Shown here one piece after another: positions 9,665-63,982 of a stretch of 64,000 nt of DNA. A model generated the notes under the pieces. The model had not been told where the DNA came from. It saw only the letters and a program-made list of their open reading frames with translations, and searched no databases. Positions within the stretch are counted from its first letter, which is position 1, and each line of letters starts with the position of its first letter. The stretch is from an uncultured Bacteroidales bacterium (GTDB lineage Bacteria; Bacteroidota; Bacteroidia; Bacteroidales; Paludibacteraceae): positions 84,207 through 148,206 of the forward strand of contig ONND01000005.1 of NCBI GenBank assembly GCA_900319105.1. The letters run 5' to 3'. The position numbers and the translations under genes are program-made.

Positions 9665-10840
9665 TTATTGAAGAGCCTGATGGCATTGCGCAGATGGAAC
9701 CGGTTTGCAAGTGGTGTAGATGATGCGAAGCCAGGCGAGGGTGTATGTGAGGACGCCAAGCCAGAGAGTCGAATGGACGTAATTGCAGATCTTGGAGGGG
9801 CAGAAGAGGTCGATCGGCATCACACACCATAAGACGAACAGCGCCCAGAAAAGGATTTTGTCAAAGACAGGACGCTTGTCCTCCAAAAAATACCACAAGG
9901 CATAGCCCGTCATGGCGATCGTATAAGTCGTATATTCCGCCGCTTCACTGAAGAGGACGATATACCCCATCAGTCCTGCCAATGCGCCGACGCGGAAAGG
10001 AAGCCCCACCCCGCCCCTCCCCTTAAAGGGAGGGAGTATTGGAAGGAGGAACGGAATCGCCAGGAGGAGCAGGGCGGCCGCCTGAAAAATACGCATGTGG
10101 GACAAAGCGAAGGTGCGTATTCCCGGCACAAAAAGGATTGAATAGTAGGTGCCGGTGGACTGATGGGAAGTCAACTGAGCAAACCAGTTCTCATATCCGG
10201 CGAGCAGTCCTTCCACACCTCCATTAAGCGCAGGAAGCAAGAGAAAACCTATTCCCGTGAGCACAACATAACCTGCATTACGCCAGAAACGCGGATAGCA
10301 GAGCAGAAGCGCCAGTTCGATAGCCCCGTAGATCTTGGTCGTCGCAGAGAGCATGATCAGGAGGATTGCCCAGAAAGACTGATCGCGCTCCAGTAGCACA
10401 AACGCCCATACGAAGATCGCCGCCACCAAGAGGTTAAACTGGAAGCAGAACAAACTCTGCGCCACCGTCAGCAGCAGATATAGCATGATCAACGGCGCCT
10501 TTTCCGAAAGGACACCGGGCAGGTTCTTTACCGCAAAATAAAAGACCGTATAGCCAAACAGATTCCATGCAAAACCGCCAAGATAAAACGGCAAGAACGC
10601 AAAAGGTGCGAACAAGACACAGAAGATAGGCGAATAGATGAAAAAACGATGGTGAACATCCACAAAATCCTGCGTATAGGGGTTGATACCCTGCCAGAAC
10701 TGCAAAGTGGCATCCCGGAAGACGCAGTAGTTCTCCGCCCCGCCGCGGAACAACTCAATCGCCGAAGCAGCTACGGCGATGACAAACCCCAACCAGTAGA
10801 TATTACGGGAAACCGTAAAGAAAGACAGGAACTTTTTCAT
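9665..10840 (-). CDS. GT87-type polyprenyl-phosphate glycosyltransferase (DUF2029)
   Basis: A 391-residue integral membrane protein with about nine hydrophobic segments, of the GT-C type. The first periplasmic loop carries the likely catalytic acidic residues (FRDATLQFWQGINPYTQDFVD), and a conserved FIYSPIFCVLFAPFAFLP follows. GT87 enzymes use polyprenyl-phosphate sugars as donors outside the inner membrane. It overlaps the GT2 gene by four bases, and that GT2 could make its donor. Residues around 280 are a repeat (PPFKGRGGVGL, R1) inside a loop. It is the last gene of the cassette, followed by a strong terminator. The acceptor is unknown. Confidence 0.8.
   Translation of the reverse strand: MKKFLSFFTVSRNIYWLGFVIAVAASAIELFRGGAENYCVFRDATLQFWQGINPYTQDFVDVHHRFFIYSPIFCVLFAPFAFLPFYLGGFAWNLFGYTVFYFAVKNLPGVLSEKAPLIMLYLLLTVAQSLFCFQFNLLVAAIFVWAFVLLERDQSFWAILLIMLSATTKIYGAIELALLLCYPRFWRNAGYVVLTGIGFLLLPALNGGVEGLLAGYENWFAQLTSHQSTGTYYSILFVPGIRTFALSHMRIFQAAALLLLAIPFLLPILPPFKGRGGVGLPFRVGALAGLMGYIVLFSEAAEYTTYTIAMTGYALWYFLEDKRPVFDKILFWALFVLWCVMPIDLFCPSKICNYVHSTLWLGVLTYTLAWLRIIYTTCKPVPSAQCHQALQ
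10001..10037. repeat. R1 copy in the GT87 gene
   Basis: CCCCACCCCGCCCCTCCCC, TTAAAGGGAGGGAG. On the coding strand it is read in frame as LPPFKGRGGVGLP, placed between two hydrophobic segments. Confidence 0.8.
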
Positions 10841-11775
10841 ACTTTCTCGTCGTTATATCTGCGTACAAAATAACCCGGTCTGTTCTTGGTCTCATTGAAA
10901 ATACGCCCCAGGTATTCGCCTAAAACGCCTATCGTGAGCAGTTGAATGCCACCGAGGAAAAGGATGGTCACCATAATCGTCGGATAGCCGGCCACCGGAT
11001 CACCATAAAGCAAGGTGGTAATGAGGATATACACCAGATAGATAAACGCCACAAACGAGACGCCTATACCCAGGTACATCGCTATGCGTAGCGGCGCGAC
11101 GGTATAACTGGTCATGCCGTTGATGGCGAGGTTGACGAGTTGTGAGAACCGCCATTTGGAGGTACCCTGCTGCCGCTCCAACTGGTCATAATAGATGCCT
11201 TTTTTCTTAAAGCCTATCCATGAGTAGAGTCCTTTCGTATTACGCTCCGACTCACGCATCTTACGCAGTGCCTCGATGCAGGTTCGGTCGAGGAGGCGAA
11301 AATCGCCGGTGTTCTTCTGTATGGGCACACGCGTCAGGCTCTGAAGCATAACGTAGTACCACTGCGAGGTCTTCTTCTTAAACCATGACTCGCGGCTCAA
11401 GCGGCGCTGCGCATATACATCGTCATAGCCTTCTTCCCATCCCTTGATCATCTCCGGGATCGCCGAGACAGGGTGCTGCATATCGGCATCCATGATAATC
11501 ACCGCATCTCCTTTGGCATAATCGAAGCCAGCCATCATCGCCACCTCCTTGCCGTAGTTACGCGAGAGGTCGATATAAGACCAGTGTTGCGGGTCTTTGT
11601 GATGCAACGCGACCATCTTATCCAACGTGGTATCCGTACTGCCGTCATTGACGAGCAGGAACTCCCAGTTATAGGCAGGGTTGTCCTTCAGCACTTGATC
11701 CATGCACTCTTGCAGGTGGTCAAAGCAAGCCTCCTCATTGTAGGCGGGCAACAGAATGGTGATTGTCTTTTTCAT
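10837..11775 (-). CDS. GT2 polyprenyl-phosphate sugar synthase (GtrB/ArnC type)
   Basis: A 312-residue family-2 glycosyltransferase. The GT-A domain has ITILLPAYNEEACF at the N-terminus, LLVNDGSTDTTL, IIMDADMQHP (metal-binding DxD) around residue 95, and YAQRRLSRES. Two C-terminal membrane segments follow (ALAINGMTSY onward, MYLGIGVSFVAFIYLVYI; TIMVTILFLGGIQLLTIGVLGEYLGRIF). This layout is that of GtrB, ArnC and FlmF, which load a sugar onto undecaprenyl phosphate at the cytoplasmic face. The neighbouring GtrA domain is the usual flippase partner. Confidence 0.88.
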   Translation of the reverse strand: MKKTITILLPAYNEEACFDHLQECMDQVLKDNPAYNWEFLLVNDGSTDTTLDKMVALHHKDPQHWSYIDLSRNYGKEVAMMAGFDYAKGDAVIIMDADMQHPVSAIPEMIKGWEEGYDDVYAQRRLSRESWFKKKTSQWYYVMLQSLTRVPIQKNTGDFRLLDRTCIEALRKMRESERNTKGLYSWIGFKKKGIYYDQLERQQGTSKWRFSQLVNLAINGMTSYTVAPLRIAMYLGIGVSFVAFIYLVYILITTLLYGDPVAGYPTIMVTILFLGGIQLLTIGVLGEYLGRIFNETKNRPGYFVRRYNDEKV

Positions 11776-11787
11776 ATCAGAAGAACA

Positions 11788-14683: not shown

Positions 14684-14699
14684 ACCTGCGTCCTCCTAA

Positions 14700-17048: not shown

Positions 17049-18905
17049 TTACATTCTATCCGGCATTTCAATCCCCAAAAGTGCCATTGAGCTGCACAAA
17101 ACTTTCGCTACATTCTTAGCCAAAAGCAGACGAAGCGCACGTTTTGTTTCGTCGGGTTCATTGAGGATCGAGAGATCATGATAGAAGGAATTGAAGTCGC
17201 ACGCGAGGGCGTACGCGTAATTACATAAGATCGCGGGCGAGAAGTCCTCTCCGGCGGTGCGCACCGTAGCCGGATATTCACAGAGGCGCTGAATAAGGGC
17301 AAGTTCTTTGGAATCCAAAGAAAGACCGGCTGCGCCTGTAAAACCGCTAACGCTGACAGAAGACAGACCGTCCTTCGGACTGACAGACTTTCTCAGCACG
17401 GACTGAATACGGGCGTAGGTGTATTGAATGAAGGGCCCGGTGTTGCCGTTGAAATCGATCGACTCAGCGGGGTTGAAGAGCATGTTCTTACGCGGATCGA
17501 CCTTGAGGATGAAGTACTTGAGTGCACCGAGGCCTACCTTGCGGGCGATCTCATTCGCCTCTTCTTCGGTGATACCTTGAAGGGTATTGACTTTATCCTT
17601 ACTGATTTCGCGAGCATCCTCGATCATCTTATCCATCAGATCGTCGGCATCGACCACCGTTCCTTCGCGGGATTTCATCTTACCGTTCGGCAGTTCGACC
17701 ATGCCGTAGGAGAAATGCACGAGCTCCTTGCCGAAGGGGAAACCGAGGCGGTCGAGGAGGATAGAGAGCACCTTGAAATGGTACTCCTGTTCATTGCCGA
17801 CCACATAGACCATCTTGTCTATCGGATAGTCCTGGAAGCGTAGTTTGGCGGTTCCTATATCCTGGGTCATATAGACCGAAGTACCGTCCGAACGGAGCAG
17901 CAGTTTCTCGTCGAGACCATCCTTGGTCAGATCCGCCCACACGGAACCGTCCTCACGGCGGTAGAAAGCACCGGACGCCAGACCTTTCTCTACTTCGGAC
18001 TTACCTTCGAGGTATGTATTGGATTCGTAGTAGATCTTATCGAACGAAACGCCCATCCGTTTGTATGTCTCGTCAAAGCCGGCATAGACCCAACTATTCA
18101 TCTTCGCCCACAGGGCGCGCACCTCAGGATCGTTGGCTTCCCATTTACGGAGCATCTCCTGCGCTTCGAGCATCAGCGGTGCCTCGCGTTTGGCGGTCTC
18201 TTCGTCCTTACCGGCCGCCATAAGTTCAGAGATCTGTTTCTTGTACTCCTTATCGAAACGCACGTAATAGTCGCCGATCAAGTGATCACCTTTCTTACCG
18301 GAGGTCTCAGGCGTCTCACCATTTCCGTATTTGAGCCATGCGAGCATGGACTTGCATATATGAATACCGCGGTCGTTGACGATATTGGTTTTCACCACCT
18401 TCCATCCGTTCGCTTCCTGAATCTTTGCGATCGAATAGCCGAGCAAGTTATTGCGCACATGGCCGAGGTGAAGGGGCTTGTTGGTGTTCGGCGAACTGTA
18501 CTCCACCATCATCAGTGGGGAGCCTACCCCTTCCCCCTCCCTAAAGGGAAGGGCCTTGTCCGAGGGACGATCAAAACGGCCGTACTGCCCATCCGCGTCG
18601 ATTGCCTCTAACTGCTTGATCCAGAACGCATCGTCAATAACGAGGTTCAGAAAACCTTGCACAGCATTGAATTTAGCTATTAACTTTTGGCCGTTAGCCA
18701 TTAGCCATTCGCCTATCTCTGCCGCCACTTGTTGCGGTGCCTTGCGGGCTATCTTAACAAAGGGGAACACCACCAAGGTGATGTTTCCCTCAAACTCCGG
18801 ACGGGTCTTTTGCAGTTGGATCTGCTCGTCTGTTGCCTCTACAGCATAAAGCGACTTCACAGCCGCTTTTGCCAATTCATTTATTTGTTGTTCTAACGAA
18901 TTCAT
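17049..18905 (-). CDS. argS: Arginyl-tRNA synthetase with three repeat insertions
   Basis: A class I synthetase of 618 residues from ATG 18905 (usual length about 590-600). The N-terminal Add-1 domain is followed by the HIGH motif as NTNKPLHLGHVRNNL near residue 135. The KMSKS loop reads GKMKSREGTVVDADDLMD. The C-terminal DALR domain ends LLGIEMPDRM. Three segments are recognisable repeats read in frame: LMANGQKLIAKF (R3), SDKALPFREGEGVGSPLMM (R1, just before the active-site strand VEYSSPNTN) and KSVSPKDGLSSVSVSG (R6, before the DALR domain). The active-site motifs are intact, so the enzyme should be functional. An R5 word array lies between it and the next gene downstream. Confidence 0.96.
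   Translation of the reverse strand: MNSLEQQINELAKAAVKSLYAVEATDEQIQLQKTRPEFEGNITLVVFPFVKIARKAPQQVAAEIGEWLMANGQKLIAKFNAVQGFLNLVIDDAFWIKQLEAIDADGQYGRFDRPSDKALPFREGEGVGSPLMMVEYSSPNTNKPLHLGHVRNNLLGYSIAKIQEANGWKVVKTNIVNDRGIHICKSMLAWLKYGNGETPETSGKKGDHLIGDYYVRFDKEYKKQISELMAAGKDEETAKREAPLMLEAQEMLRKWEANDPEVRALWAKMNSWVYAGFDETYKRMGVSFDKIYYESNTYLEGKSEVEKGLASGAFYRREDGSVWADLTKDGLDEKLLLRSDGTSVYMTQDIGTAKLRFQDYPIDKMVYVVGNEQEYHFKVLSILLDRLGFPFGKELVHFSYGMVELPNGKMKSREGTVVDADDLMDKMIEDAREISKDKVNTLQGITEEEANEIARKVGLGALKYFILKVDPRKNMLFNPAESIDFNGNTGPFIQYTYARIQSVLRKSVSPKDGLSSVSVSGFTGAAGLSLDSKELALIQRLCEYPATVRTAGEDFSPAILCNYAYALACDFNSFYHDLSILNEPDETKRALRLLLAKNVAKVLCSSMALLGIEMPDRM
17341..17395. repeat. R6 copy in argS
   Basis: CGCTGACAGAAGACAGACCG, TCCTTCGGACTGACAGAC. 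A hairpin forms from GTCC/GGAC around TTC. The core of more than 30 bases is identical to the copy at 27978-28008. Read as SVSPKDGLSSVS. Confidence 0.85.
18517..18566. repeat. R1 copy in argS
   Basis: GGGGAGCCTACCCCTTCCCC, CTCCCTAAAGGGAAGGG, CCTTGTCCGAGGG. It is a palindromic core with longer flanks. Read as ALPFREGEGVGSP. Confidence 0.85.
18672..18711. repeat. R3 copy in argS
   Basis: TTTAGCTATTAACTTTTGG, CCGTTAGCCATTAGCCATTC. Read on the coding strand as MANGQKLIAKF. Confidence 0.7.
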
Positions 18906-18910
18906 AAAAA

Positions 18911-18945
18911 ACATTTACCATTTAGTCATTTACCATTTACAATTT
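18911..18945. repeat. R5 array at the argS start
   Basis: Words of CATTTACCATTT, TAGTCATTTACC and ATTTACAATTT fill the gap between the mannose synthase stop and the argS start. Confidence 0.75.
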
Positions 18946-30257: not shown

Positions 30258-30309
30258 CCGATTTAGTTTGCGCGAGTATGCGCACATGCGAAAGCATACG
30301 AAAAAAAAC

Positions 30310-32229
30310 ATGGACTATAAGTACATCAATAAGATTGATTCGCCGGCGGATCTGAAGAAGTTGAGAGTGGAAGAGTTGCCGGAAGTATGCGCAGAGCTGC
30401 GCCAATTCATCATTGAGGCGCTGAGTAAGAACCCCGGACATTTGGCTTCGTCCCTGGGTGCGATTGAGTTGACCGTGGCGCTGCATTATGTCTTCAATAC
30501 GCCGGAGGATAAATTGGTATGGGATGTAGGGCATCAGGCGTACGCCCATAAGATCCTTACAGGCCGTCGGGACCGTTTCCATACAAACCGTCAGTTCAAA
30601 GGCCTTTCTCCTTTTACCAACCCCGCTGAGAGCGAATACGATGCGTTTATTGCCGGCCATGCCAGCAACTCGATTTCCGCGGCATTAGGTATGAACATCG
30701 GCGGAGACAAGAACGTGGTTGCGATCATCGGGGATGGCGCATTGACTGGAGGTCTGGCGTTTGAGGGACTGAACAACACGTCGATGGACAAGAACAACCT
30801 GCTGATTGTTCTCAATGACAACCACATGGCTATCGATCCGCTCAAGGGCGGTATCACGCAGTACCTGGTCGATCTGACTACCAGTTCAACCTATAATAAA
30901 TGGCGCTGGAGGCTTTATCAGTTGGCCGAAAAACTGCACCTCATGGACGAACGCAAACGTCGTGCGATGTTACGCCGCAACAATAGTCTGAAAGCCGTTT
31001 TTTCCGAACAACAGAGTAATATCTTCACGGGTCTCAACATCCGCTATTTCGGTCCTACGGACGGTCATGACGTCGAGGGCTTGGTTCGTATCCTAAGCGA
31101 GATCAAGAACCACCGTGGTCCTAAAGTGCTGCATATTATCACCAAAAAAGGAAAAGGTTATGCACCCGCGGAGAACGACCAGACCGTTTGGCATGCTCCG
31201 GGGGAGTTTAATGTAGCCAACGGCCAACGGCTAACAGCTAATAGCCAGGATACGCCTCTTTGGCAAGAGGTGTTCGGCGAAACGCTGCTGGAGTTGGCAA
31301 AGAAAAATGAGAAGATCGTTGGTATCACACCGGCTATGCCGAGCGGATGTTCGATGAGTATCATGCAAAAGGAGTTTCCTGACCGCGTGTTCGACGTCGG
31401 TATCGCCGAAGGGCACGCCGTGACGTTCAGCGCAGGTCTGGCAAAAGCGGGGATGGTACCTTACTGCAATGTCTATTCCACTTTTCTTCAACGCGCATAC
31501 GATAATATCGTCCACGATGTAGCGTTGCAGAACCTGCATGTGGTGCTCTGTATAGACCGCGCGGGTATCGTTGGCAACGACGGCGCAACGCACCATGGTC
31601 TGTTGGATCTCGCGTACCTGCGACCAATACCGAACATGCAGATCTGCGCTCCAAGGACAGCCGAGGATCTAAGAGAGATGTTGACACTCGCGGAGACACT
31701 TGACGGACCTGTAGCAATCCGGTATCCAAGGGGCAGAAGCCCCCTCCAACTCCCCCATGAAGGGGGAGAGCCCTCTAAGAAGGTGGAGTATGGCAAAGGC
31801 GTGAAGTTGCGGGACGGAGAGGATATCGCGGTTCTGACCATCGGAAGTATCGGCAACGCGATGAGCGAAGCCATTGATTTAGCTGTTAGCCGTTGGCCGT
31901 TAGCCGTTAGCGAAAAACCAATAGCCAATAGCCAAAAGCCAATAGCTCACTACGATATGCGGTGGTTGAAGCCGCTGGACGAAGAGATATTACACGAAGT
32001 AGGACGAAAATACAAGACTATCGTCACCGCCGAGGACGGCATTATAGCCGGCGGCTTCGGAAGCGCGGTACTCGAATGGATGAGTGACCATGGCTACTCA
32101 CCGCGCATTATACGGCTTGGCGTGAACGACCAGTTTGTAGAACATGGTTCAACCAAAGAATTATACCATTTATTGAAATTAGATAAGGAGGGCTTATGCG
32201 AATCGTTATTGCAGGCGCAGGCGAAGTAG
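30310..32229 (+). CDS. dxs: 1-Deoxy-D-xylulose-5-phosphate synthase with repeat insertions
   Basis: A 639-residue ThDP enzyme that makes the first intermediate of the MEP isoprenoid pathway. The N-terminus is [18 protein letters not shown]. The ThDP motif is [18 protein letters not shown] around residue 140, [13 protein letters not shown] is near residue 70 and DGHDVEGL marks the linker. The pyrimidine domain has [33 protein letters not shown] and IRYPRGR. Three segments are repeats in frame: [13 protein letters not shown] (R3), [15 protein letters not shown] (R1) and [21 protein letters not shown] (R3, doubled). They fall at the domain linker and in C-terminal loops, so activity should be kept. 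The end overlaps trkA by 34 bases. Confidence 0.96.
31213..31248. repeat. R3 copy in dxs, first
   Basis: TAGCCAACGGCCAACGGC, TAACAGCTAATAGCC. Read as [12 protein letters not shown] at the domain linker. Confidence 0.85.
31729..31787. repeat. R1 copy in dxs
   Basis: AAGGGGCAGAAGCCCCC, TCCAACTCCCCCATGAAGGG, GGAGAGCCCTC. The hairpin is built from CTCCCCC and GGGGGAG. Read as [15 protein letters not shown]. Confidence 0.8.
31879..31948. repeat. R3 double copy in dxs, inverted halves
   Basis: AGCTGTTAGCCGTTGGCCG, TTAGCCGTTAGCG, then CCAATAGCCAATAGCC, AAAAGCCAATAGC. The two halves are in opposite orientation and can pair. Read as [24 protein letters not shown]. Confidence 0.85.
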
Positions 32230-35015: not shown

Positions 35016-36317
35016 ATGAGACCGTATAAAGTTCTGATATTTATAGCCTGTGTGATGGGATGCCTGGCAGCACTATGCGTAGTGTTGCCCGGACGCCTTG
35101 CGTGGGGAGATACGGAACTGAGATGGCCGACGATAGCGGAAGTACTAAGCACCAACCAACCTCCCCATGAAGGGGAGGAGATAGAGCAACTAGATACTCT
35201 AGAGAGACTAGATACGCTAGATACGCCAGCCCCTCCGGAGAAGAGCGAGGAGAGGCTACCCATTCCCAAGATCACTGTTGATTCAACCACTGATAGCCGT
35301 ATCTTCCTGCAGGCATTCTATGCCTCCTTGGCAGAGGTGGGGCACCGGCGCATTCGTGTGATGCACTACGGGGATAGTCAGATCGAAGAAGACCGCATGA
35401 CGATGCAAATCCGTTCTACACTTCAAGCGCGCTACGGCGGTCGGGGTATTGGCCTAATGCCGCTCGCCCAGACGATCCCTACTCTCACGGAAAAACAGCA
35501 ACTCTTCATGAACGGCCGGTACGTAAGCCCGGCGCAAGGCCCGAGACGCTATTTCGTCTATGGCTACAAACGTGACCAACGTAGCGACGGGCTGTATGGT
35601 GTCATGGGACAGATGGCGGAGATGAACGACAGTCTGGTGAGCGGCAGTGAGCAGATGATGGCTGTTTGTACGCCGCAGGGAAAGCAAGCACGATACACCC
35701 GATGGCAAGTGTTCGCCGACAGTACCATCCGGGCAACTCTCTCCGGCGACACAGTGCGGTTGGCGGGTAAAGGAAACGTTTATGGTCTGTCGCAGGAGAG
35801 CGAGACAGGTATCATCGTCGATAATATCCCCATGCGAGGCTGTTTGGGTACGGTCTTCACGAAGATCGACAGTACACAGTTGGCGGATTTCTACCGCGAA
35901 CAGAACGTGCGGCTGATCATCCTGCAGTTCGGAGGCAATGCTATACCCTCCAACCAGAACCCCGGCACCATCCAGAGTATCGTAAGGGGTTTGCGGGAAC
36001 AAGTACGTTTCTTACGGACCTGCGCCCCGCAAGCTTCGTTCCTCTTCATCGGTCCGAGCGACATGCTCACTCAGACGGACGGTGAATGGCACACCTTCCC
36101 TATGGTGCCCTACATGGATAAGTTACTGCGTAAGATGGCGCTTGAAGAGAACATCGCTTATTTCAGTTTGTATCGCTGGATGGGCGGTGCCGGTAGTATG
36201 ATGAGGTGGCAGGAGATCGGTCTGGCAGGCTCGGATGGCATACATTTTACCCGCGCCGGGGCACGCAAAGCCGGAAATGCGGTCGCAGATTGGATATTGG
36301 AGGGGATAGAGAGTTGA
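35016..36317 (+). CDS. Periplasmic SGNH/GDSL-type esterase partner of MBOAT
   Basis: A 433-residue protein with an N-terminal membrane anchor (VLIFIACVMGCLAALCVVL), a low-complexity linker and an SGNH-hydrolase domain from about residue 95. MHYGDSQIEEDRM is block I with the catalytic Ser, LIILQFGGNAIP is the Gly/Asn block, and GSDGIHFTRAGARKAG holds the Asp-x-His of block V. SGNH proteins beside MBOAT genes usually act as the periplasmic step of polysaccharide O-acetylation. The linker (QPPHEGEEIEQLDTLERL, DTLDTP) is built from an R1 copy plus tandem TAGATAC words. The MBOAT gene follows 28 bases later. Confidence 0.85.
   Translation: MRPYKVLIFIACVMGCLAALCVVLPGRLAWGDTELRWPTIAEVLSTNQPPHEGEEIEQLDTLERLDTLDTPAPPEKSEERLPIPKITVDSTTDSRIFLQAFYASLAEVGHRRIRVMHYGDSQIEEDRMTMQIRSTLQARYGGRGIGLMPLAQTIPTLTEKQQLFMNGRYVSPAQGPRRYFVYGYKRDQRSDGLYGVMGQMAEMNDSLVSGSEQMMAVCTPQGKQARYTRWQVFADSTIRATLSGDTVRLAGKGNVYGLSQESETGIIVDNIPMRGCLGTVFTKIDSTQLADFYREQNVRLIILQFGGNAIPSNQNPGTIQSIVRGLREQVRFLRTCAPQASFLFIGPSDMLTQTDGEWHTFPMVPYMDKLLRKMALEENIAYFSLYRWMGGAGSMMRWQEIGLAGSDGIHFTRAGARKAGNAVADWILEGIES
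35153..35180. repeat. R1 copy in the SGNH gene
   Basis: CCAACCTCCCCATGAAGG, GGAGGAG. Tandem ACTAGATAC words follow to about 35228. Read as QPPHEGEE. Confidence 0.75.
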
Positions 36318-38244: not shown

Positions 38245-38300
38245 ACCGCCCTACGGGCTGACAGAACACAGACCGTTTCACTGACAGAACACAGACCGAT
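38245..38300. repeat. R6 tandem copies before coaE
   Basis: ACCGCCCTACGGGCTGACAG, AACACAGACCGTTTCACTG, ACAGAACACAGACCG. The word ACAGAACACAGACCG occurs twice. It fills the whole gap between the MBOAT stop and coaE. Confidence 0.85.
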
Positions 38301-38301
38301 T

Positions 38302-38928
38302 ATGATTATTGGTATTACAGGAGGTATAGGAAGTGGGAAGTCCACTATCGCGCGAGCGCTCGCAGCCCGCGGGTACGCCGTTTATGACTGCGACAAGGAA
38401 GCCAAACGCATCATCGCCGAGAACAAGGACGTGCAGCAACAGATCATCAACTTGTTCGGCGAGAAATCATTTATCAATGGCATCTACAACACGCAATATA
38501 TCAGTAAGTGCGTGTTCTCTCCTTCCCTTCAGGGGAGGTCGGGAGAGGCTCTTCTTGCGCAACTCAACGCCATCATCCACCCTGCTGTCAAAGCAGATAT
38601 ACTTTCCCTCCCCTCTACGGGGAGGTTAGGAGGGGCTCCGGTCCTTTTCATCGAGTCCGCTATACTCGTCGAGGCAGGGTTAGATACCATTTGCGACAAG
38701 ATCATCGTTATAGAAGCGCCGGAGGAGGTACGTATCGCCCGAACGATCGAACGGGACTATGGAGGTGTGGCGACGGAAGAGAATATAAATAAGGTACGCG
38801 CGCGTATAAGGGCACAAAAATCCCCTGCGCCGGAAAAGACACAGGGGAAATACTATCGCGTTGCGAACGACGGCCGTTTAGTACTGAGCCGCGTCGTAAA
38901 CCTGATCTGCGACATCGCTACCCACTAA
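38302..38928 (+). CDS. coaE: Dephospho-CoA kinase with two R1 insertions
   Basis: A 208-residue P-loop kinase for the last step of coenzyme A synthesis. The P-loop is IGITGGIGSGKSTIARAL at residues 3-20, YDCDKEAKRI holds the acidic substrate site, LNAIIHPAV and VLFIESAILVEAGL are conserved, and VRIARTIERD is the lid. Segments VFSPSLQGRSGEALL and LSLPSTGRLGGAP are R1 copies in loops. Total length is still about that of the family, so other parts are trimmed. The end overlaps the convergent DJ-1 gene by 51 bases. Confidence 0.94.
   Translation: MIIGITGGIGSGKSTIARALAARGYAVYDCDKEAKRIIAENKDVQQQIINLFGEKSFINGIYNTQYISKCVFSPSLQGRSGEALLAQLNAIIHPAVKADILSLPSTGRLGGAPVLFIESAILVEAGLDTICDKIIVIEAPEEVRIARTIERDYGGVATEENINKVRARIRAQKSPAPEKTQGKYYRVANDGRLVLSRVVNLICDIATH
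38515..38550. repeat. R1 copy in coaE, first
   Basis: TCTCTCCTTCCCTTCAGGG, GAGGTCGGGAGAGG. Read as FSPSLQGRSGEA. Confidence 0.8.
38603..38640. repeat. R1 copy in coaE, second
   Basis: TTTCCCTCCCCTCTACGGG, GAGGTTAGGAGGGGCTCCG. Read as LPSTGRLGGAP. Confidence 0.8.
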
Positions 38929-41324: not shown

Positions 41325-41332
41325 ATTAATTT

Positions 41333-41422
41333 TCAAATTTCAAATATCAAATATCAAATGTCAAATATCAAATCTCAAATCTCAAATGACAAATGTCAAA
41401 TCTCAAATCTCAAATCTCAAAT
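41333..41422. repeat. R4 array between pdxJ and exbB
   Basis: Twelve or so words of CAAATATCAAATGTC, CAAATCTCAAAT and CAAATGACAAATG fill the gap completely, up to the pdxJ stop. The word length is 7 bases with variation at two positions. Confidence 0.85.
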
Positions 41423-41425
41423 GAC

Positions 41426-46644: not shown

Positions 46645-46679
46645 GATTTGAGATTTGAAATTTGAGATTTGACATTTGA
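46641..46679. repeat. R4 array between fmt and the HD gene
   Basis: TTGAGATTTGAGATTTG, AAATTTGAGATTTGAC, ATTTGAG. The TTG start of the HD gene (46676) is inside the last word. Confidence 0.8.
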
Positions 46680-47233
46680 GAATTACGGATTATTTAGCTC
46701 TCATAGATAAGTACTACGGTAACTACCCACAGTTACGGGAAGTATTGGTGACGCACAGCCGGCAGGTGGCCGATCGGGCGCTGCGTATCGTGGATGCCCA
46801 CCCCCAATGGGAAGCGCAGGGTCTGGTGGATCGTACCTTCGTAGAAGAAGCGGCTATGCTGCACGATATAGGTATTATCTTCTGCAACGCACCGAAGATC
46901 TACTGCCGCGGCTCGCATAAGTACATTGAGCACGGTTATTTGGGAGCGGAGTTACTGCGTTCGGAAGGCTATCCCAAACATGCGTTAGTGGCAGAGCGAC
47001 ACACGGGAACCGGCATTACGATAGAGCAGGTCGAGCGCGAGGAGTTACCAATCCCCGAACGCGACTACTGCCCGCAGAGCCTCGAAGAGAAAATCATTTG
47101 CTACGCCGATAAATTCTACAGCAAATCGCACCTCGGCGAGGAGGTGAGTCTCGATAAGATCAAACACAACATCTGGAAATACGGCCACGATGCGATCGTT
47201 CGGTGGCAAGCGTTGGAGGAGTTGTGTAATTAG
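46676..47233 (+). CDS. HD-domain phosphohydrolase
   Basis: A 185-residue HD-domain protein. The start is TTG (LRITDYLALIDKYYG). Metal residues: VLVTHSRQVADRAL (first His), EEAAMLHDIGIIF (His-Asp), KYIEHGYLGAELL and LVAERHTGTGI, then IICYADKFYSK with the last Asp. This is the short HDIG/YqeK-like layout. Substrates in the family include nucleotides and cyclic dinucleotides; not predictable here. It may follow fmt in one transcript. It ends four bases into the convergent DUF3078 gene. Confidence 0.82.
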   Translation: MRITDYLALIDKYYGNYPQLREVLVTHSRQVADRALRIVDAHPQWEAQGLVDRTFVEEAAMLHDIGIIFCNAPKIYCRGSHKYIEHGYLGAELLRSEGYPKHALVAERHTGTGITIEQVEREELPIPERDYCPQSLEEKIICYADKFYSKSHLGEEVSLDKIKHNIWKYGHDAIVRWQALEELCN

Positions 47234-51400: not shown

Positions 51401-51766
51401 GGCGAAACGGCGTGCGGTCGATTTGACGATCGCGTACGCCTCGGGAAGTATCTCCGTGAGGACCTCCTCGTACTTATCCTTTATTTCTTTTTCGAGTTTA
51501 TCTACTTCGTTGTATATCTTCTCACGTTTCTCGATAGGCGTGGTCTCAATTTGAGATTTGAGATTTGCGATTTGAGATTTCTTGTCTGCGACGGCAGCCT
51601 GTAGCTTGTCCATGAGCGCCCAAGAGCGGGCACGAAGTTCATCGTTGGAGAGCGCATCAATCGTCTCGTACTGCGCTTTGATCTGCTCTACTACCGGCTG
51701 AATAGCGCGCATATCTTTCTGCGCTTTGTTACCGAATAGTTTCGTAATAATTTCTAAAAAATTCAT
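48407..51766 (-). CDS. secA: Preprotein translocase ATPase SecA with repeat insertions
   Basis: The 1119-residue motor of Sec export, close to the usual Bacteroidetes length. The DEAD motor has [21 protein letters not shown] (Walker A), [18 protein letters not shown] (Walker B), [12 protein letters not shown] and [15 protein letters not shown] (motif VI). The C-terminus has a zinc SEC-C tail ([19 protein letters not shown]). Two segments are repeats in frame: [15 protein letters not shown] (R4, early helix) and [15 protein letters not shown] (R3, before the Walker A strand). Motor motifs are intact. The promoter at 51832-51863 and an R5 array precede it. Confidence 0.97.
51282..51316. repeat. 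R3 copy in secA
   Basis: ACGGCTATTGGCTGTTGGC, TATTGGCTGTTGGCTC. Read on the coding strand as [11 protein letters not shown]. Confidence 0.8.
51547..51582. repeat. R4 copy in secA
   Basis: CAATTTGAGATTTGAG, ATTTGCGATTTGAGATTTC. Read as [12 protein letters not shown]. Confidence 0.8.
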
Positions 51767-59661: not shown

Positions 59662-60221
59662 GTAAAAAACTGACCACTGCGGAGATGAACCGCCTGAGCG
59701 TGGCGGAATACCAAGAGGCAGACAAACTGCCCCTTGTGGTGGTATTGGATAATATCCGCAGCCAGCATAATGTAGGTGCTGTTTTTCGTACTGCCGACGC
59801 CATGCGTATCGAGCGTGTAGTGCTTTGCGGCATTTGCTGCTGTCCTCCGAACCAGGAGATCCATAAAACGGCCCTGGGAGCAGAAGAGAGTGTTGAATGG
59901 CAATATTTTGAGCACACTCTTGACGCAGTAAAGGCCTTGCAGAAGGAAGGTTTCAGTGTCTATGCCGTTGAGCAGGCACACGACTCGATCACATTAGAAG
60001 AAGCGGCTGTAAAGGTACAAAGGGACAAAGTACAAAGTACAAAGGTCGCCGTTGTATTAGGTCATGAGGTGTTCGGCGTTCAACAAGAAGTAATAGATCA
60101 ATGTAGCCAATGTATAGAGATACCCCAATACGGAACGAAGCACTCGATGAACGTGTCGGTGACAGCAGGCATCGTAATGTACCGCTTAGCCTCCTCTCTC
60201 CGGCGCGCGACAAAGAAGTAG
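59658..60221 (+). CDS. SpoU/TrmH-family RNA methyltransferase with an R2 insertion
   Basis: A 187-residue SPOUT methyltransferase. Motif 1 LDNIRSQHNVGAVFRTADA, motif 2 VVLGHEVFGVQQEVI, motif 3 IPQYGTKHSMNVSVTAGIVMY are complete and form the trefoil-knot SAM site. It methylates ribose 2'-OH of tRNA or rRNA; the target is not predictable. The segment KVQRDKVQSTKV between strands before motif 2 is an R2 copy. It overlaps rimM by four bases and the U32 gene by 112. Confidence 0.9.
   Translation: MSKKLTTAEMNRLSVAEYQEADKLPLVVVLDNIRSQHNVGAVFRTADAMRIERVVLCGICCCPPNQEIHKTALGAEESVEWQYFEHTLDAVKALQKEGFSVYAVEQAHDSITLEEAAVKVQRDKVQSTKVAVVLGHEVFGVQQEVIDQCSQCIEIPQYGTKHSMNVSVTAGIVMYRLASSLRRATKK
60014..60044. 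repeat. R2 copy in the SpoU gene
   Basis: AGGTACAAAGGGACAAAG, TACAAAGTACAAAGG. Almost identical to the fmt copy. Read as KVQRDKVQSTK. Confidence 0.88.
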
Positions 60222-61642
60222 CGAAAGCGGCTATCCAAGCAGGTGCCGATGCTATCTATATCGGTGCACCGATGTTCGGTGCGCGTCAAGCAGCCGGTAA
60301 TAGTATCGAAGATCTGACCGAGGTAGTCAACTACGCCCATACGTACGGCGTACAGGTGCTCGTGACACTCAACACCCTGCTGCATGAAGACGAGTATCCT
60401 CAAGCAGTCTCGCTCGCGCACGCGCTATATAATATAGGTGTCGATGCGCTTATTATTCAGGATCTGCATCTCCTGGATTTCAATCTGCCTCCTATCCGAC
60501 TCCATGCTTCTACGCAATGCGATAACCGCACGCCGGAGCAGGTGAAGCGGCTACGGGACTTGGGGTTCAAGCGCGTGGTCTTGGCACGCGAATTGGGGAT
60601 TGAGGAGATTCGGGCGATCCATGCTGCAGTGCCGGATATCGAATTAGAAGCGTTCGTACATGGAGCTTTATGCGTGAGTTTTTCGGGACGATGCTATATA
60701 TCCGAAGTGCTGGCTGGACGAAGTGCGAACCGAGGTGCTTGTGCGCAGTTCTGCCGCATGGCGTACGACCTGTTGGATAGCGAAGGGAATGAAGTATTGG
60801 ACGAGAAGGGAGAACCGATTCATCAGCGGTATTTATTGAGTCTGCAAGACTTGGACCGAAGTGCCTACCTGGACGAACTGATCGAAGCGGGAGTGACTAC
60901 TTTTAAGATCGAGGGACGGCTAAAAGACGCTGATTATGTGACGAATATCACAGCGTATTATCGGGAGAAATTAGACCGCTACCAGGTTGACCTCAGAACA
61001 CAGACCGCTTCGCTGACAGAGCACAGACCGGTTTTCACCCGCTCTTTTGTGCCCAACCCGGAGAAGACCTTCCACCGCGGAGGAATAGATTATTTTCTGC
61101 ACGGCAGAACGCCTCACATGGCTAATTGGGACACGCCCAAGTCCACGGGAGAGTATATCGGAGAAGTGCTGGAAACAAGAGGAAACACGCTGAAAGTGCG
61201 GCTCAAAGAAGGTGTTGTACTGCATAACGGGGACGGACTAAGTATCGGCAACGAAGGGTTTAACGTCAACGGTGTAGAAGGAAATATAGTGAAGGTGAAT
61301 AAAGAGCCTACCTCCATCTCCTCCCTAAAGGGGAGAGGGCTGTATAGAAATCTGGATGTCGAGTTTGTCAAGAGCCTGAAGAGCGAACGGAAGATTCCGG
61401 TGGATGTTATCTTCAGCGAAACCGAGGACGGGTTCCGAATCTGTATCGGAGATAAAGAACGCTCCTTTGTCTATGCGCATGAGGAAGCAAAAAATGAACA
61501 AAAAGCGATGGAAACCATCCGTACACAGTTGTCCAAGTTGGGCGACACGCCGTATATAGCACGCGGAGTGCGGATTGAGAGTAAGCCGTATTTTATACCT
61601 ATTAGTGTTTTGAACGAATGGAGACGCAATACCCTCCTTTGA
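60110..61642 (+). CDS. U32-family peptidase-like protein, main part
   Basis: A protein of the U32 family (RlhA/YhbU/TrhP type, linked to RNA hydroxylation): PLSLLSPARDKEVAKAAIQ, ADAIYIGAPMFGARQAAGNS, RLHASTQCDNRTPEQVK, VLARELGIEEIRAIH, FVHGALCVSFSGRCY and RSANRGACAQFCRMAYDL with its Cys cluster. The conserved start is near 60180, but no ATG lies there in this frame; the first upstream start is ATG 60110, giving a 112-base overlap with the SpoU gene. R6 (VDLRTQTASLTEHRPV) and R1 (TSISSLKGRGLY) segments are inserted. The frame ends at 61642 before the family's C-terminal Cys domain. Confidence 0.88.
   Translation: MYRDTPIRNEALDERVGDSRHRNVPLSLLSPARDKEVAKAAIQAGADAIYIGAPMFGARQAAGNSIEDLTEVVNYAHTYGVQVLVTLNTLLHEDEYPQAVSLAHALYNIGVDALIIQDLHLLDFNLPPIRLHASTQCDNRTPEQVKRLRDLGFKRVVLARELGIEEIRAIHAAVPDIELEAFVHGALCVSFSGRCYISEVLAGRSANRGACAQFCRMAYDLLDSEGNEVLDEKGEPIHQRYLLSLQDLDRSAYLDELIEAGVTTFKIEGRLKDADYVTNITAYYREKLDRYQVDLRTQTASLTEHRPVFTRSFVPNPEKTFHRGGIDYFLHGRTPHMANWDTPKSTGEYIGEVLETRGNTLKVRLKEGVVLHNGDGLSIGNEGFNVNGVEGNIVKVNKEPTSISSLKGRGLYRNLDVEFVKSLKSERKIPVDVIFSETEDGFRICIGDKERSFVYAHEEAKNEQKAMETIRTQLSKLGDTPYIARGVRIESKPYFIPISVLNEWRRNTLL
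60985..61032. repeat. R6 copy in the U32 gene
   Basis: GTTGACCTCAGAACACAG, ACCGCTTCGCTGACAGAG, CACAGACCG. Same words as before coaE. Read as VDLRTQTASLTEHRPV. Confidence 0.85.
61304..61341. repeat. R1 copy in the U32 gene
   Basis: GAGCCTACCTCCATCTCC, TCCCTAAAGGGGAGAGGGC. Read as PTSISSLKGRGL. Confidence 0.85.
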
Positions 61643-61809: not shown

Positions 61810-61819
61810 AGATTGAACA

Positions 61820-63034
61820 ATGAAGATTTTCGTAGCGAGTATATTAGCATTAGTGCTGCATGTTTCTTCGGGCGAGCGTATTAATGATGCACTGGATAGT
61901 GCGCGGGCGGTGTATCAGGCTAAGGGTGAGAAGACAACTATCCTGATTGAGCCGGGTACGTATCAGGAGGAACTGACTATCGATGTGCCGGGTCTGACGC
62001 TGAAGAACGCCAGCAAGAAACCTTCCGTCGGGCTGAAGAACTACGGTGTGGACTGCGACGAGAACGCCGTACGGATTACCTGGTACTACGGGCACGGATA
62101 CCAATATAAATCCATGGGTAGCCGCGTGAACTATGGAGGGTCGAGAGAGCGGCGATGGAATGCGTCGGTGCTGGTAACTGCGCCGGATTTCAAGGCAGAG
62201 AATATCATTTTCGAGAACTCTTTTAACTTGTATGTAAGCGAGAAGGAAGCGGCAGACAGTCTGGTAGATATCAGCCAATCCGAGATGCCATGGACAGAGA
62301 AAGAGCGTCCGAAGAAAATAATGCCCGAACGTCCGAAAGAAGCGGGTTCGACGGAAGTACAGAAGAAGAAATACAGGGAACGCGCAGCGGCTATCTCATT
62401 TACCGAGGGAGCAACGAACGCACGTCTGAAGAACTGCCGTGCTGTGGGACGACAGGATGTGTTGTACGGCGATGAAGGAGCAAGTATCTACTGGGAAGGC
62501 GGTGTGCTGGCCGGTGGGGTAGATTTTATCTTCGGCGGCATGACGATGTGCGTAAACAAGGCTACTATTGTAGCCAATATCAACGGTGAGAAAGGCGATA
62601 AATGCTATATTAGTGCGGGGCGAAGCGAGCCTACCCCTACCCCCTCCCTAAAAGGAGGGGAATCTCATCAACGCGGGCTCTTGTTTTATAAATGTCATAT
62701 ACGGGTAGCGACTGAGGATGAGTTGGATTTGAGTTCATCCTTGAAGAGCAAAGAAGGAATGGTTTGGTTAGCTCGTCCGTGGCGCTGGTGGGGCGAGACC
62801 GTATGGGCATATACGACTTGGGAAGAAGGGATATTGAATCCCGAGGGTTGGCATCTCGGGTTAGTAAAAGGCAAAGAGGGTTTCAATCCAGAAAACCCTT
62901 GTCCGCACAGCTATGAATACCAATCGCAGGATTCGTCGAAAGGAAGACCGAAATGGGTAAAGGTGCTAACCAAGCCTGTTTTGCCAGATGGGACGAAGAT
63001 CAGGCCGAAGAAGTGGATAAAAAATACACATTGA
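61820..63034 (+). CDS. Pectinesterase-family protein
   Basis: A 404-residue secreted protein of the pectin methylesterase fold (CE8). Short signal peptide MKIFVASILALVLHVSS. The beta-helix motifs are ALDSARAVYQAKGEKTTILI, IIFENSFN, RAAAISFTEGATNARLKNC, GRQDVLYGD (Gln and first Asp), GGVDFIFGG (second Asp) and VWLARPWRWWG (Arg). These are the catalytic residues of CE8. It removes methyl esters from pectin or a related polymer. SEPTPTPSLKGGESHQ is an R1 copy in a loop after a strand. An ATTGAAAATTGAAG word array precedes the start. Confidence 0.92.
   Translation: MKIFVASILALVLHVSSGERINDALDSARAVYQAKGEKTTILIEPGTYQEELTIDVPGLTLKNASKKPSVGLKNYGVDCDENAVRITWYYGHGYQYKSMGSRVNYGGSRERRWNASVLVTAPDFKAENIIFENSFNLYVSEKEAADSLVDISQSEMPWTEKERPKKIMPERPKEAGSTEVQKKKYRERAAAISFTEGATNARLKNCRAVGRQDVLYGDEGASIYWEGGVLAGGVDFIFGGMTMCVNKATIVANINGEKGDKCYISAGRSEPTPTPSLKGGESHQRGLLFYKCHIRVATEDELDLSSSLKSKEGMVWLARPWRWWGETVWAYTTWEEGILNPEGWHLGLVKGKEGFNPENPCPHSYEYQSQDSSKGRPKWVKVLTKPVLPDGTKIRPKKWIKNTH
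62627..62666. repeat. R1 copy in the pectinesterase gene
   Basis: GAGCCTACCCCTACCCCC, TCCCTAAAAGGAGGGGAATC. Read as EPTPTPSLKGGE. Confidence 0.88.
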
Positions 63035-63060
63035 TGTAGAAAAATTGACGGAAATCGTAT

Positions 63061-63086
63061 AAAAGGAGTGCCTCGGCACTCTTTTT
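63061..63086 (+). terminator. Terminator of the 54156-63034 run
   Basis: GAGTGCC (63066-63072), loop TC, GGCACTC (63075-63081), then TTTTT. It lies 27 bases after the pectinesterase stop. Confidence 0.85.
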
Positions 63087-63098
63087 ATATATATGCAT

Positions 63099-63133
63099 TT
63101 GCATATATTGATTTTTTTTTGTAATTTTGTAGC
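63099..63133 (+). promoter_or_regulatory. Promoter of dapB
   Basis: TTGCATATATTG, T-tract instead of the A-tract, TTGTAATTTTGTAGCC, 52 bases before ATG 63185. Confidence 0.78.
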
Positions 63134-63184
63134 CGATTTTGTGCGCACGTACTAGACGCGCACGCATACACACTAATAGAGAAG

Positions 63185-63982
63185 ATGAAAATAGCCATTA
63201 TTGGATACGGAAAAATGGGTCACATGATTGAGGAAGTGGCCCTGAGTCGGGGACATGAAATCACTTGCGTGATTGACCGCGTTGCTGTAGGACCGTCGCA
63301 AAGCGACTGTAAGACCGCTAACGCTGTAGGACCGGCTTCGCCTGTAAGATATTATTCTTCGGAAGAAGGGTTTGAGACAGAGGCGTTCAGGAGTGCGGAT
63401 GTGGCGATAGAGTTCACGACTCCAGCGACGGCGGAAGAGAACATCCGCAAGGCGTGGGCGCAAGGTGTGCCGGTTGTCTCCGGTACTACAGGAATAAACA
63501 AGCCTAACCCAGACCCTTCCCTAAAAGGAAGGGAGGAAGGAAACAGATGGGTTGTTCGGAATACGGAAGGCAAAGTGATGCTCGTGTGGAGCAGCAATTA
63601 TTCGGTGGGAGTGAATATATTCTTTGAGTTGAACAAGTTTCTGGCGGAGAAAATAAGAGAAGCCTCTCCCCAACCCTCCCCTGAAGGGAAGGGAGGTTAT
63701 ATGCCATCCATCAAAGAGATTCATCATATCCATAAATTGGACAAACCGAGTGGCACCGCAAAGACACTTGCGGAGCAAATCTCCGCTATGTACGAAGAAC
63801 GGATGTACGATGTACGAAGGGAAGTGCCTATCGAGAGTATCCGCGAGGGTGAAGTGCCGGGGACGCATGAGGTGAAATGGGATAGCGAGGAAGACACCAT
63901 TATTATTACCCACATCGCCAAGGGAAGAAGGGGCTTTGCATTAGGAGCAGTATTAGCAGCTGAAAAAATTGGGATCAGGTAA
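63185..63982 (+). CDS. dapB: 4-Hydroxy-tetrahydrodipicolinate reductase with repeat insertions
   Basis: A 265-residue enzyme of the lysine and diaminopimelate pathway, slightly longer than relatives. MKIAIIGYGKMGHMIEEVAL is the NAD(P) fold (GxGxxG), VAIEFTTPATAEENI, PVVSGTTGI, SSNYSVGVNIFFELN, and the active-site block IKEIHHIHKLDKPSGTA with its paired His and Lys. SIREGEVPGTHEV and the RRGFALGAVLAAEKI end are typical. Three or four segments are repeats in frame: VAVGPSQSDCKTANAVGPA (R6), PNPDPSLKGREEG (R1), ASPQPSPEGKGGY (R1), and possibly MYEERMYDVRRE (R2-like). The catalytic parts are intact. Confidence 0.95.
   Translation: MKIAIIGYGKMGHMIEEVALSRGHEITCVIDRVAVGPSQSDCKTANAVGPASPVRYYSSEEGFETEAFRSADVAIEFTTPATAEENIRKAWAQGVPVVSGTTGINKPNPDPSLKGREEGNRWVVRNTEGKVMLVWSSNYSVGVNIFFELNKFLAEKIREASPQPSPEGKGGYMPSIKEIHHIHKLDKPSGTAKTLAEQISAMYEERMYDVRREVPIESIREGEVPGTHEVKWDSEEDTIIITHIAKGRRGFALGAVLAAEKIGIR
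63274..63349. repeat. R6-like copy in dapB
   Basis: GACCGCGTTGCTGTAGGACC, GTCGCAAAGCGACTGTAAG, ACCGCTAACGCTGTAGGACC, GGCTTCGCCTGTAAG. Three GACCG hairpin modules in a row. Confidence 0.75.
63500..63540. repeat. R1 copy in dapB, first
   Basis: AGCCTAACCCAGACCCTTCC, CTAAAAGGAAGGGAGGAAG. Read as PNPDPSLKGREE. Confidence 0.88.
63661..63696. repeat. R1 copy in dapB, second
   Basis: AGCCTCTCCCCAACCCTCCC, CTGAAGGGAAGGGAGG. Read as ASPQPSPEGKGG. Confidence 0.88.

Follow-up and report, generated by a model that had tools for sequence, protein, structure and literature searches.

A short GC-rich repeat, here termed R1, lies in frame within conserved genes of an uncultured, Paludibacteraceae-like bacterium from the herbivore gut (genome G000, 90.8% complete). 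R1 acts like the Rickettsia palindromic elements (RPEs), yet is none of them. It is probably a non-autonomous repeat of the REP/RPE kind, of which the in-frame, stop-free inserts in variable loops survive. Between sister species of these uncultured rumen bacteria, R1 appears, vanishes, or yields to unrelated repeats at the same spots.

The R1 unit is about 35 nt long (33-36 nt), AAGCCTACCCC-nnn-CCCCTCCCTAAAAGGAGGGGA, and combines a C-rich tail with an imperfect GC-rich hairpin. It is thus asymmetric, not the simple palindrome described in a sequence-only reading of the 64-kb stretch of G000 analyzed here (the window). Sequence information falls off within a few nucleotides on either side of the 35-position consensus. 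The hairpin is conserved, with double changes in none of its six pairs. On the G strand, the main consensus carries GTAG 3′ of the hairpin (GGGGTAGGCTT), a motif missing from the subfamilies CCTCTCC, CCTAACC, and CCCCACC.

Searching the window with a bare 18-mer core (up to three mismatches) gave six strand matches at four places, compared with a mean of 0.02 in 100 shuffles, none of which reached six. Looser core patterns gave 14 matches, nine of them copies listed in the sequence-only reading and five seemingly unrelated. A covariance model trained on 26 copies from G000 and run unfiltered recovered seven of the listed copies at E ≤ 0.002, two of which (18520 and 62627) belong to its training set. 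The dxs copy was marginal (E 0.07) and was outranked by an unlisted partial match of 20 nt at 24437 (E 0.028); the SGNH copy and the second coaE copy were missed, scoring above E 1. Support for the SGNH copy comes from the direct-repeat family D17, to which the dxs copy, the one listed copy that the looser cores left out, also belongs, and for the second coaE copy from a coaE palindrome common to the sister genomes G356 and G021. All ten places named in the sequence-only reading exist, and each copy reads in frame within an intact ORF, on either strand and in several frames, as it had stated. The host genes number eight by its own list, not seven, and their names agree with Pfam/NCBIfam wherever a family matches (e.g., argS and dxs). 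Chance as the source of the matches was ruled out by the shuffles, a reversed-pattern control, and the profile matches. A known RNA family was likewise ruled out, the window having no Rfam match at gathering score. A plasmid search with the 35-nt consensus returned a single Sphingobium match (E 0.02).

Table 1. R1 and R1-like copies in the window and the genes that contain them.
Feature	Position	Strand	Details
R1 in GT87-family gene	10002..10036	+	28.2 bits, E 7e-7, covariance model
GT87-family host gene	9665-10840	-	R1 read as LPPFKGRGGVGL
R1 in argS	18520..18554	+	53.2 bits, E 2e-14, training copy
argS host gene	17049-18914	-	TIGR00456 E 3e-127; R1 read as ALPFREGEGVGS
Diverged R1-like copy in dxs	31737..31770	+	model E 0.07; family D17
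dxs host gene	30268-32229	+	TIGR00204 E 2e-207; copy read as 12 residues
Diverged R1-like copy in SGNH/GDSL gene	35147..35180	+	family D17, 79%
SGNH/GDSL host gene	35016-36317	+	copy near N terminus, read as LSTNQPPHEGEE
R1 copy 1 in coaE	38519..38551	-	16.9 bits, E 0.002
R1-like copy 2 in coaE	38606..38640	-	looser-core match; read as SLPSTGRLGGAPV
coaE host gene	38302-38928	+	Pfam CoaE E 2e-29 across copy 1, read SPSLQGRSGEA
R1 in U32 peptidase-family gene	61304..61339	+	27.0 bits, E 2e-6
U32 peptidase-family host gene	60110-61642	+	R1 read as EPTSISSLKGRG
R1 in pectinesterase gene	62627..62661	+	56.4 bits, E 2e-15, training copy
pectinesterase host gene	61820-63034	+	R1 read as EPTPTPSLKGGE
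R1 copy 1 in dapB	63500..63534	+	37.1 bits, E 1.5e-9; read as KPNPDPSLKGRE
R1 copy 2 in dapB	63660..63694	+	30.4 bits, E 1.6e-7; read as EASPQPSPEGKG
dapB host gene	63185-63982	+	copy 1 = residues 106-117, copy 2 = residues 159-170

Within the host proteins, R1 lies between the N-terminal and catalytic domains of ArgS, between the Transket_pyr and C-terminal domains of Dxs, and between the Pfam domains U32 (residues 99-313) and DUF3656 (411-509) of the U32 protein. In the GT87 protein it follows residue 272, just past the Pfam match (E 4e-16, residues 66-257); the SGNH copy is far outside the GDSL domain, which matches at residues 271-417 (E 1e-7), and the pectinesterase copy falls inside the Pfam Pectinesterase domain (187-345), after residue 270. 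The sequence-only reading had placed the copies in loops, which several sites close to protein ends qualify. All six sites tested fall where loop length also varies among other species (product of chance fractions, 1.7e-4). AlphaFold2 models of two proteins, DapB and CoaE, have confident cores and place the R1 residues mostly in predicted loops or helix ends. In DapB, residues 106-114 are modeled as a loop and copy 2 as a helix end followed by a loop, while residues 115-117 form a short strand.

Orthologues from other families have no R1 at the argS, U32, coaE, and dapB sites (aligned rows inspected by eye). None of 29 argS orthologues from other genomes shows the insert in its window form; at this place G006 carries an R1-like insert that is eroded and in a different frame. 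Neither dapB copy occurs in any of 29 aligned orthologues, and the dapB of G022 carries its own R1 in another loop. In the U32 alignment (congener rows L253, L255, and L256, blank over the slot, left out), G004 has a loop of near-equal length, compared with which the net gain is one codon. Some sites are common to congeners: coaE copy 1 is shared with G356 and lacking in G021 and 18 other congeners (one of these, G010, has a different insert there), and copy 2 is common to G000, G356, and G021 and lacking in G018, G002, G003, G006, and G015. Since the coaE copies are common to two or three species, not every R1 copy is species-specific.

Genome-wide, G000 holds at least 62 R1 profile matches (150 of 559 candidates scored), and the R1 pattern gave 69 strand matches versus three for the reversed control. 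Among 65 copies examined, 47 lie within ORFs bearing a Pfam domain, with hosts including ArgRS, CysRS, DNA polymerase I, RecQ, Ddl, QueA, CoaE, and DapB; in-frame location in conserved genes is, like sequence and copy number, directly observed. This count rests on Pfam support and not on a codon-model gene finder, because the latter missed coaE and dapB and shortened the SGNH gene. The remaining 18 copies are without an accepted Pfam-supported host ORF, so that the ten of ten within genes in the window do not hold genome-wide, and the supposed confinement of R1 to protein loops is not supported. R1 is neither confined to genes nor enriched there: an automatic coding rule called 41 of the 65 copies coding, compared with 3054 of 3738 random 35-nt segments (Fisher p 5e-4). 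The apparent depletion may be partly an artifact, as the rule undercounts R1 hosts, calling only six of the ten window copies coding (35 of 55 outside the window) though all ten are in genes. Thirty of the 47 coding copies are on the gene's strand and 17 on the opposite one, and all six orientation/frame classes are represented. Over the 65 copies, 247 of 390 frames are open; with about 63% of a copy's six frames open, most orientations are tolerable. The predicted peptides have 11-13 residues and are rich in Pro, Gly, Lys, and Glu; peptide strings from other bacteria matched no paper in a text search of open-licence PMC articles. At the ends of the 65 copies, 4-8 nt direct repeats, as expected of target-site duplication, were no commoner than in shuffled pairs.

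Copy number ranges from 0 to 72 among 37 genomes of the genus, 29 of which have at least one match; the coding test on loci from this survey took 22 of 30 (L181-L202). Restriction to this lineage, as first stated, is not supported, for 31 of 295 genomes sampled elsewhere in Bacteroidota contain weaker relatives with R1's architecture, with none of 11 checked loci coding. The genomes compared include metagenome assemblies. An assembly artifact is unlikely given the orthologous flanks, the informative coding differences in multiples of three, and the presence of R1 in 29 of the 37 genomes.

Filled and altered sites were compared directly in the sister genomes G356 and G021, which have 64 kb in common with long pieces 91-96% identical (about 94%); this pair was used because the loops of G018 and G002 are too diverged for exact insertion boundaries. 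Counting only blocks of 15-600 nt with identity below 0.62 (a filter that omits the three R1 slots 3972, 4356, and 55978), the pair differs by 43 swapped blocks, 13 of them called coding. In all 13, the length difference is divisible by three; three are equal in length, hence ten of ten informative blocks keep the frame. The other 30 divide 13/10/7 by residue modulo 3. Site polymorphism and frame-keeping length differences between sister species are direct observations. Nine slots matched the R1 model (the two G356 coaE palindromes fell short of E ≤ 0.05 and are not among them): in the other genome two are shared, one holds another subfamily, three hold other repeats, and three no repeat. The other repeats include unrelated heptamers and GATCACGTGATC, heptamer arrays being the alternative alleles at two R1 slots. 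The sequence-only reading had overlooked these unrelated repeats in the same gene slots of sister species. Clean insertions or deletions account for only four of the 43 blocks and one of the 13 coding blocks, so that replacement dominates; coding blocks 21601 and 54251, diverged stretches of equal length, involve no repeat. Different R1 subfamilies are dominant in the two genomes.

We favor the following account. R1 would be a short interspersed repeat of the non-autonomous kind, which spreads to new sites in the genomes of one herbivore-gut Paludibacteraceae-like genus, presumably by a transposition-like process, and inserts both within and between genes. Intragenic copies would persist where the frame is kept, no stop arises in the host frame, and the site is a length-tolerant loop, linker, or protein end; in-frame location would then reflect selection, not targeting, and the encoded peptides would be expressed as extra residues. 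Turnover may be fast, with copies lost or displaced by the genome's other repeat families, and R1 may occasionally cross from one species to another along with a short tract of flanking sequence. Counted against an inserting repeat are the missing target-site duplication, the few clean indels, the U32 gain of a single codon, the shared coaE copies, and the lack of a Y1 transposase above cut-off in G000.

The scarcity of clean gaps (39 of 43 blocks exceed 3 nt on both sides) also suits a less likely reading, in which recombination or template switching overwrites permissive loops from a genome-wide repertoire of R1, heptamers, GATCACGTGATC, and longer tandem units, R1 being one cassette. An R1 or R1-like palindrome faces heptamers between identical flanks (G356:63730 and 8454), R1 faces another repeat in the argS of G018, and one slot holds two different R1 subfamilies. 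However, all 62 listed copies cover model positions 1-35, which fits whole-unit insertion (although the search favors complete matches), neither an exchange enzyme nor flanking homology was found, and an insertion later trimmed by deletion, with loop length under selection, would look the same. In its broad form, to which we give low odds, a genus-wide process would repeatedly overwrite tolerant loops, in frame, with short repeats unrelated to one another, among them GC-rich palindromes and heptamer arrays. It is similarly doubtful that such a process is fast enough to separate species about 94% identical and diversifies housekeeping proteins. Short-tract homologous recombination between species could instead carry loop alleles, R1 among them, with within-genome amplification minor. 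The coaE of G356 matches that of G000 across R1 and some 30-40 nt upstream and that of G021 elsewhere, but flanks of coding blocks come close to background in identity at 10 nt and beyond (0.965, 0.944, and 0.938, values biased because anchors define the blocks), and at least 62 matches at unrelated sites of one genome need within-genome copying, which makes this account improbable.

Slightly more improbable still is that R1 is a RAYT-mobilized GTAG REP family whose transposase was lost, or missed in an incomplete genome. The GTAG of the main consensus and Y1 matches above cut-off in 30 of 61 genomes, including the R1-rich G018, G019, and G022 (with a stop), speak for it, as does the 90.8% completeness of G000. 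The motif, however, lies 3′ and not 5′ of the hairpin and is missing from three subfamilies; the best Y1 scores (PF01797) in G000 and the R1-rich G007 are 20.6 and 21.5 bits, under the 23-bit cut-off, and the R1-rich G006, G042, G050, G052, and G021 (63-97% complete) have no match at E ≤ 0.001. A RAYT acting in cis was not supported by the Y1 search. That selection keeps a functional RNA or protein element at each site (a translation-pausing hairpin or a binding peptide, for instance) is very improbable: the hairpin is conserved and information-processing genes are frequent among hosts, but six reading classes on both strands imply no fixed peptide or mRNA structure, conservation between species is lacking at most of the sites compared, and paired double changes are absent.

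With 37 genomes sampled, widely differing copy numbers, and two sisters about 94% identical in which filled, empty, and exchanged sites can be set side by side, this genus makes it testable how such elements spread and how proteins accommodate them. Caution is due, as an insert in a conserved gene of these gut bacteria may be recent repeat debris and need not mark a lineage or form a functional domain.

Rickettsia offers the best-known protein-coding palindromes, the RPEs, reportedly described by Ogata et al. in 2000. REPs carry their GTAG tag 5′ of the stem-loop, and R1 may resemble proteobacterial repeats of similar architecture. According to PMC3767692 and PMC10969869, RPEs lie within preexisting ORFs of unrelated genes with the frame intact, measure 100-150 bp, and encode conserved, solvent-exposed peptides; different groups occur near each other in some orthologues (PMC3767692). 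The likeness claimed in the sequence-only reading is borne out, R1 too lying in frame within preexisting ORFs, here of conserved genes that are unrelated to each other (47 of 65 copies), and in loops. R1 differs in its length, sequence, use of all frame classes, and occurrence in Bacteroidota, and its slots in the sister pair are also taken by heptamers and other repeats; as to position in the host protein, the two models, DapB and CoaE, show loops or helix ends. The CGTC end tag assigned to RPE-4 and RPE-6 in PMC3733652 is lacking at the R1 consensus ends. Novelty needs care, since the same text already describes GTAG/CGTC REPs as 20-40 bp stem-loops with GTAG as end tag, some within ORFs, in Rickettsia conorii, Opitutus terrae, and others, with hosts among DNA repair genes, DNA polymerase I, and tRNA synthetases and double insertions per gene (PMC3733652). 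R1 shares the short stem-loop, similar hosts, and double insertions, whereas those REPs are mostly intergenic and 47 of 65 examined R1 copies lie in Pfam-supported ORFs, GTAG sits 3′ of the hairpin in one subfamily only, and G000 has no RAYT above cut-off such as a REPtron has. The target-site duplication of MITEs does not rise beyond shuffled level at R1. Heptanucleotide direct repeats (TAACTGA), largely intergenic in Beggiatoaceae, Cyanobacteria, and some Bacteroidetes according to PMC4679880, resemble the arrays that alternate with R1 at two slots, yet the heptamers here are others and also lie in frame inside genes.

The consensus of 26 R1 copies from the source genome (G000, 2.26 Mb in 30 contigs, 90.8% complete, with the window at C5:84207-148206), AAGCCTACCCC-nnn-CCCCTCCCTAAAAGGAGGGGA, comprises a C-rich asymmetric tail followed by a GC-rich imperfect hairpin. 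It differs in this from the simple palindrome of the sequence-only reading. The hairpin has six predicted pairs, with double changes in none of the six. Subfamilies, compared across 40 copies of exactly 35 nt, are defined by the tail variants CCTACCCC, CCTAACCC, CCTCTCCC, and CCCCACCC and differ in the stem as well; the 5′ flank of these copies is weakly purine-rich. Over 65 copies, the frequency of direct repeats at the R1 ends did not exceed that in shuffled pairs.

A covariance model built from the 26 copies recovered 7 of the 10 originally listed window copies at E ≤ 0.002, including two training copies, and one more at E 0.07; the remaining two were not found at E ≤ 1. All ten copies are translated in frame, as had been proposed of them, and all eight host genes have Pfam matches, with NCBIfam equivalog or family matches indicating function in five. 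Genome-wide, the profile search returned at least 62 matches at E ≤ 0.1, a count resting on 150 of 559 candidates scored, and the addition of three window copies gave 65 for examination. A Pfam scan of the ORFs hosting the ten window copies and 40 further ORFs led to the acceptance of 47 copies in Pfam-supported ORFs (Table). Confinement to proteins, as first suggested, is not borne out by the other 18: for five the scanned ORF gave no Pfam match, for eleven no ORF entered the scan, and two (C5:31315 and C19:60342) probably sit upstream of a gene start, given that their ORF has a Pfam match but its left part carries no coding signal. Some accepted copies near ORF ends (for example 6, 13, 24, and 25 codons before the stop, or 31 codons past the upstream stop) may be marginal cases. 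Outside the window 37 copies were accepted; by our reading, 21 of these are each enclosed by one Pfam envelope, the others occupying linkers or positions near an end. Thirty of the 47 follow the gene strand (frame classes 18/8/4) and 17 the opposite strand (3/10/4). An automatic coding rule called 41/65 copies coding versus 3054/3738 random segments from the same loci; because it recognized just 6 of the 10 window copies, the true coding share of R1 exceeds 41/65. R1 is in any case not enriched in genes, and the majority of copies are genic.

Table. Repeats in the window and hosts of R1 copies outside it (host names more precise than the Pfam family are our own reading)
Feature	Window position	Basis
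Heptamer/14-mer repeat	18912-18945	
Heptamer/14-mer repeat	28713-29985	
Heptamer/14-mer repeat	31877-31951	
Heptamer/14-mer repeat	41309-41427	
Heptamer/14-mer repeat	46646-46691	
Heptamer/14-mer repeat	51549-51580	
GACAGACCGTCC..GGACTGACAGACCG repeat	17351-17388	
GACAGACCGTCC..GGACTGACAGACCG repeat	27727-28025	
GACAGACCGTCC..GGACTGACAGACCG repeat	38256-38301	
GACAGACCGTCC..GGACTGACAGACCG repeat	60994-61033	
R1 hosts: ApbE, NRPS (two copies), S41 peptidase, Ham1, GH53		Pfam
R1 hosts: PP-loop ATPase (TilS-like), LRR protein, chorismate synthase, ThiF, HflX-like GTPase		Pfam
R1 hosts: metallo-beta-lactamase-fold protein (three copies), chromate transporter, RadA-like, SMC/RecF-like protein		Pfam
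R1 hosts: DUF1015, radical SAM protein, DUF4381, DUF58, MiaB/RimO-like protein		Pfam
R1 hosts: D-Ala-D-Ala ligase, exonuclease VII, ODP-flavodoxin protein, RecQ, acyl-ACP thioesterase		Pfam
R1 hosts: cysteinyl-tRNA synthetase, exo/endonuclease, class-V aminotransferase, SDR, GDSL protein		Pfam
R1 hosts: DUF4886 (two), DNA polymerase I, GT2, QueA		Pfam

Other repeats share the window. Heptamer/14-mer families (CAAATCT, AATAGCC, GTACAAA, and CATTTACCATTT) occur within ORFs and between genes, and the GACAGACCGTCC..GGACTGACAGACCG family recurs at several places, some within long ORFs. In dxs, a stretch encoding 16 residues precedes a 10-residue motif that we take to be conserved. Elsewhere in the genome, L150 (G000:C15:31921) and L175 (G000:C27:982) have near-identical contexts with an R1 copy in each, apparently a duplicated segment.

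Among named genomes, the closest DapB relatives belong to Paludibacteraceae or Bacteroidales MAGs, of which many come from samples of rumen or other herbivore gut. R1 matches at E ≤ 0.01 occur in 29 of 37 genomes of the genus (the source genome counted), copy number across the 37 ranging from 0 to 72; elsewhere in the order, 3 of 24 genomes, all of other families, have such a match. A phylum sample gave weaker matches in 31 of 295 other genomes, scoring at most 38.1 bits versus up to 58.7 within the genus; restriction to this lineage, in the form first suggested, is not supported. With a codon model trained on the source genome, none of 11 checked phylum-sample loci was called coding, and at 10 of them the best frame spans fewer than 120 flanking codons. 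Such loci (L309-L319) display the R1 architecture, some with a longer loop (TAATCTTA), and genus g81 has several matches per genome. Among congeners, 22 (L181-L202) of 30 loci were submitted to the coding test; excluding three too short to use, one tested at the wrong place (L190), and the source genome's own non-coding copy (L185), 13 of 17 were called coding.

All six tested sites (in argS, U32, coaE, and dapB) coincide with length variation among congeners, with a chance-fraction product of 1.7e-4 from alignments that contained the window sequence itself. AlphaFold2 models of DapB and CoaE (mean pLDDT 84.9 and 91.5) agree with the loop positions initially suggested: in DapB the R1 residues fall for the most part within a loop and past the end of a helix, and in CoaE they are found between a pair of helices and at a helix end plus loop. 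Neither dapB copy occurs at its site among 29 aligned orthologues (36 found), and G022 dapB carries R1 in a third loop. At the argS slot, G018 carries a different type of repeat, and G006 an R1-like palindrome that is eroded and lies in a different frame. In coaE, the second palindrome is common to the source genome and the sister genomes G356 (RUG14576) and G021, while the first, along with some 30-40 nt lying upstream of it, is shared with G356 and absent from G021, which G356 coaE elsewhere resembles. Some alleles therefore either pass from species to species within short tracts or have undergone replacement in G021; coaE is the clearest case. In G010 coaE (L287), the loop of the first copy holds an insert of about 16 residues of another kind.

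G021 and G356 are syntenic over 64 kb, with long pieces 91-96% and a few shorter ones 78-84% identical. This synteny is broken by 43 blocks (≥15 nt, identity <0.62), between which identity is 96.2% across 55,177 nt. Thirteen blocks were called coding in both genomes; all 13 length differences are divisible by three, ten being informative since three blocks are equal in length. The other 30, part of which may also be coding, distribute 13/10/7 by length difference modulo 3. Repeats are not involved in every swapped block, and just 4 of the 43 are clean gaps. Two of nine R1-model slots are common to both genomes and one holds different R1 subfamilies; in the others, R1 faces heptamer arrays (two), a GATCACGTGATC repeat (one), or no repeat (three). 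Tandem TTTGAGGGTTTGAAGTTG arrays in genes also differ in length in frame between G356 contig 5 (L354) and G021 contig 48 (L350, L351), measuring 39 vs 150 nt and 2 vs 104 nt (at 23139 and 31425 of G356 contig 5).

Repeat identity, together with the differences in sites, subfamilies, and copy number, speaks for R1 being a repeat that spreads, and the keeping of frame speaks for a selective filter. A search for the Y1 transposase (PF01797), sought as a REP mobilizer, gave nothing over the cutoff in the 90.8% complete source genome. Of the congeners rich in R1, five (63-97% complete) have no match at E ≤ 0.001 and another three have matches over the cutoff. The most unexpected result is that replacement outweighs clean insertion, reflecting either a long succession of events at loops that tolerate them or a true exchange process.

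Among the open-licence papers listed by the literature searches, we recognized no report of such elements in Bacteroidota genes. The same principle of repeats in genes is described for intragenic GTAG/CGTC REPs (PMC3733652) and for Rickettsia palindromic elements (PMC3767692, PMC10969869); hotspots of insertion where the elements belong to different groups are already a topic of PMC3767692.
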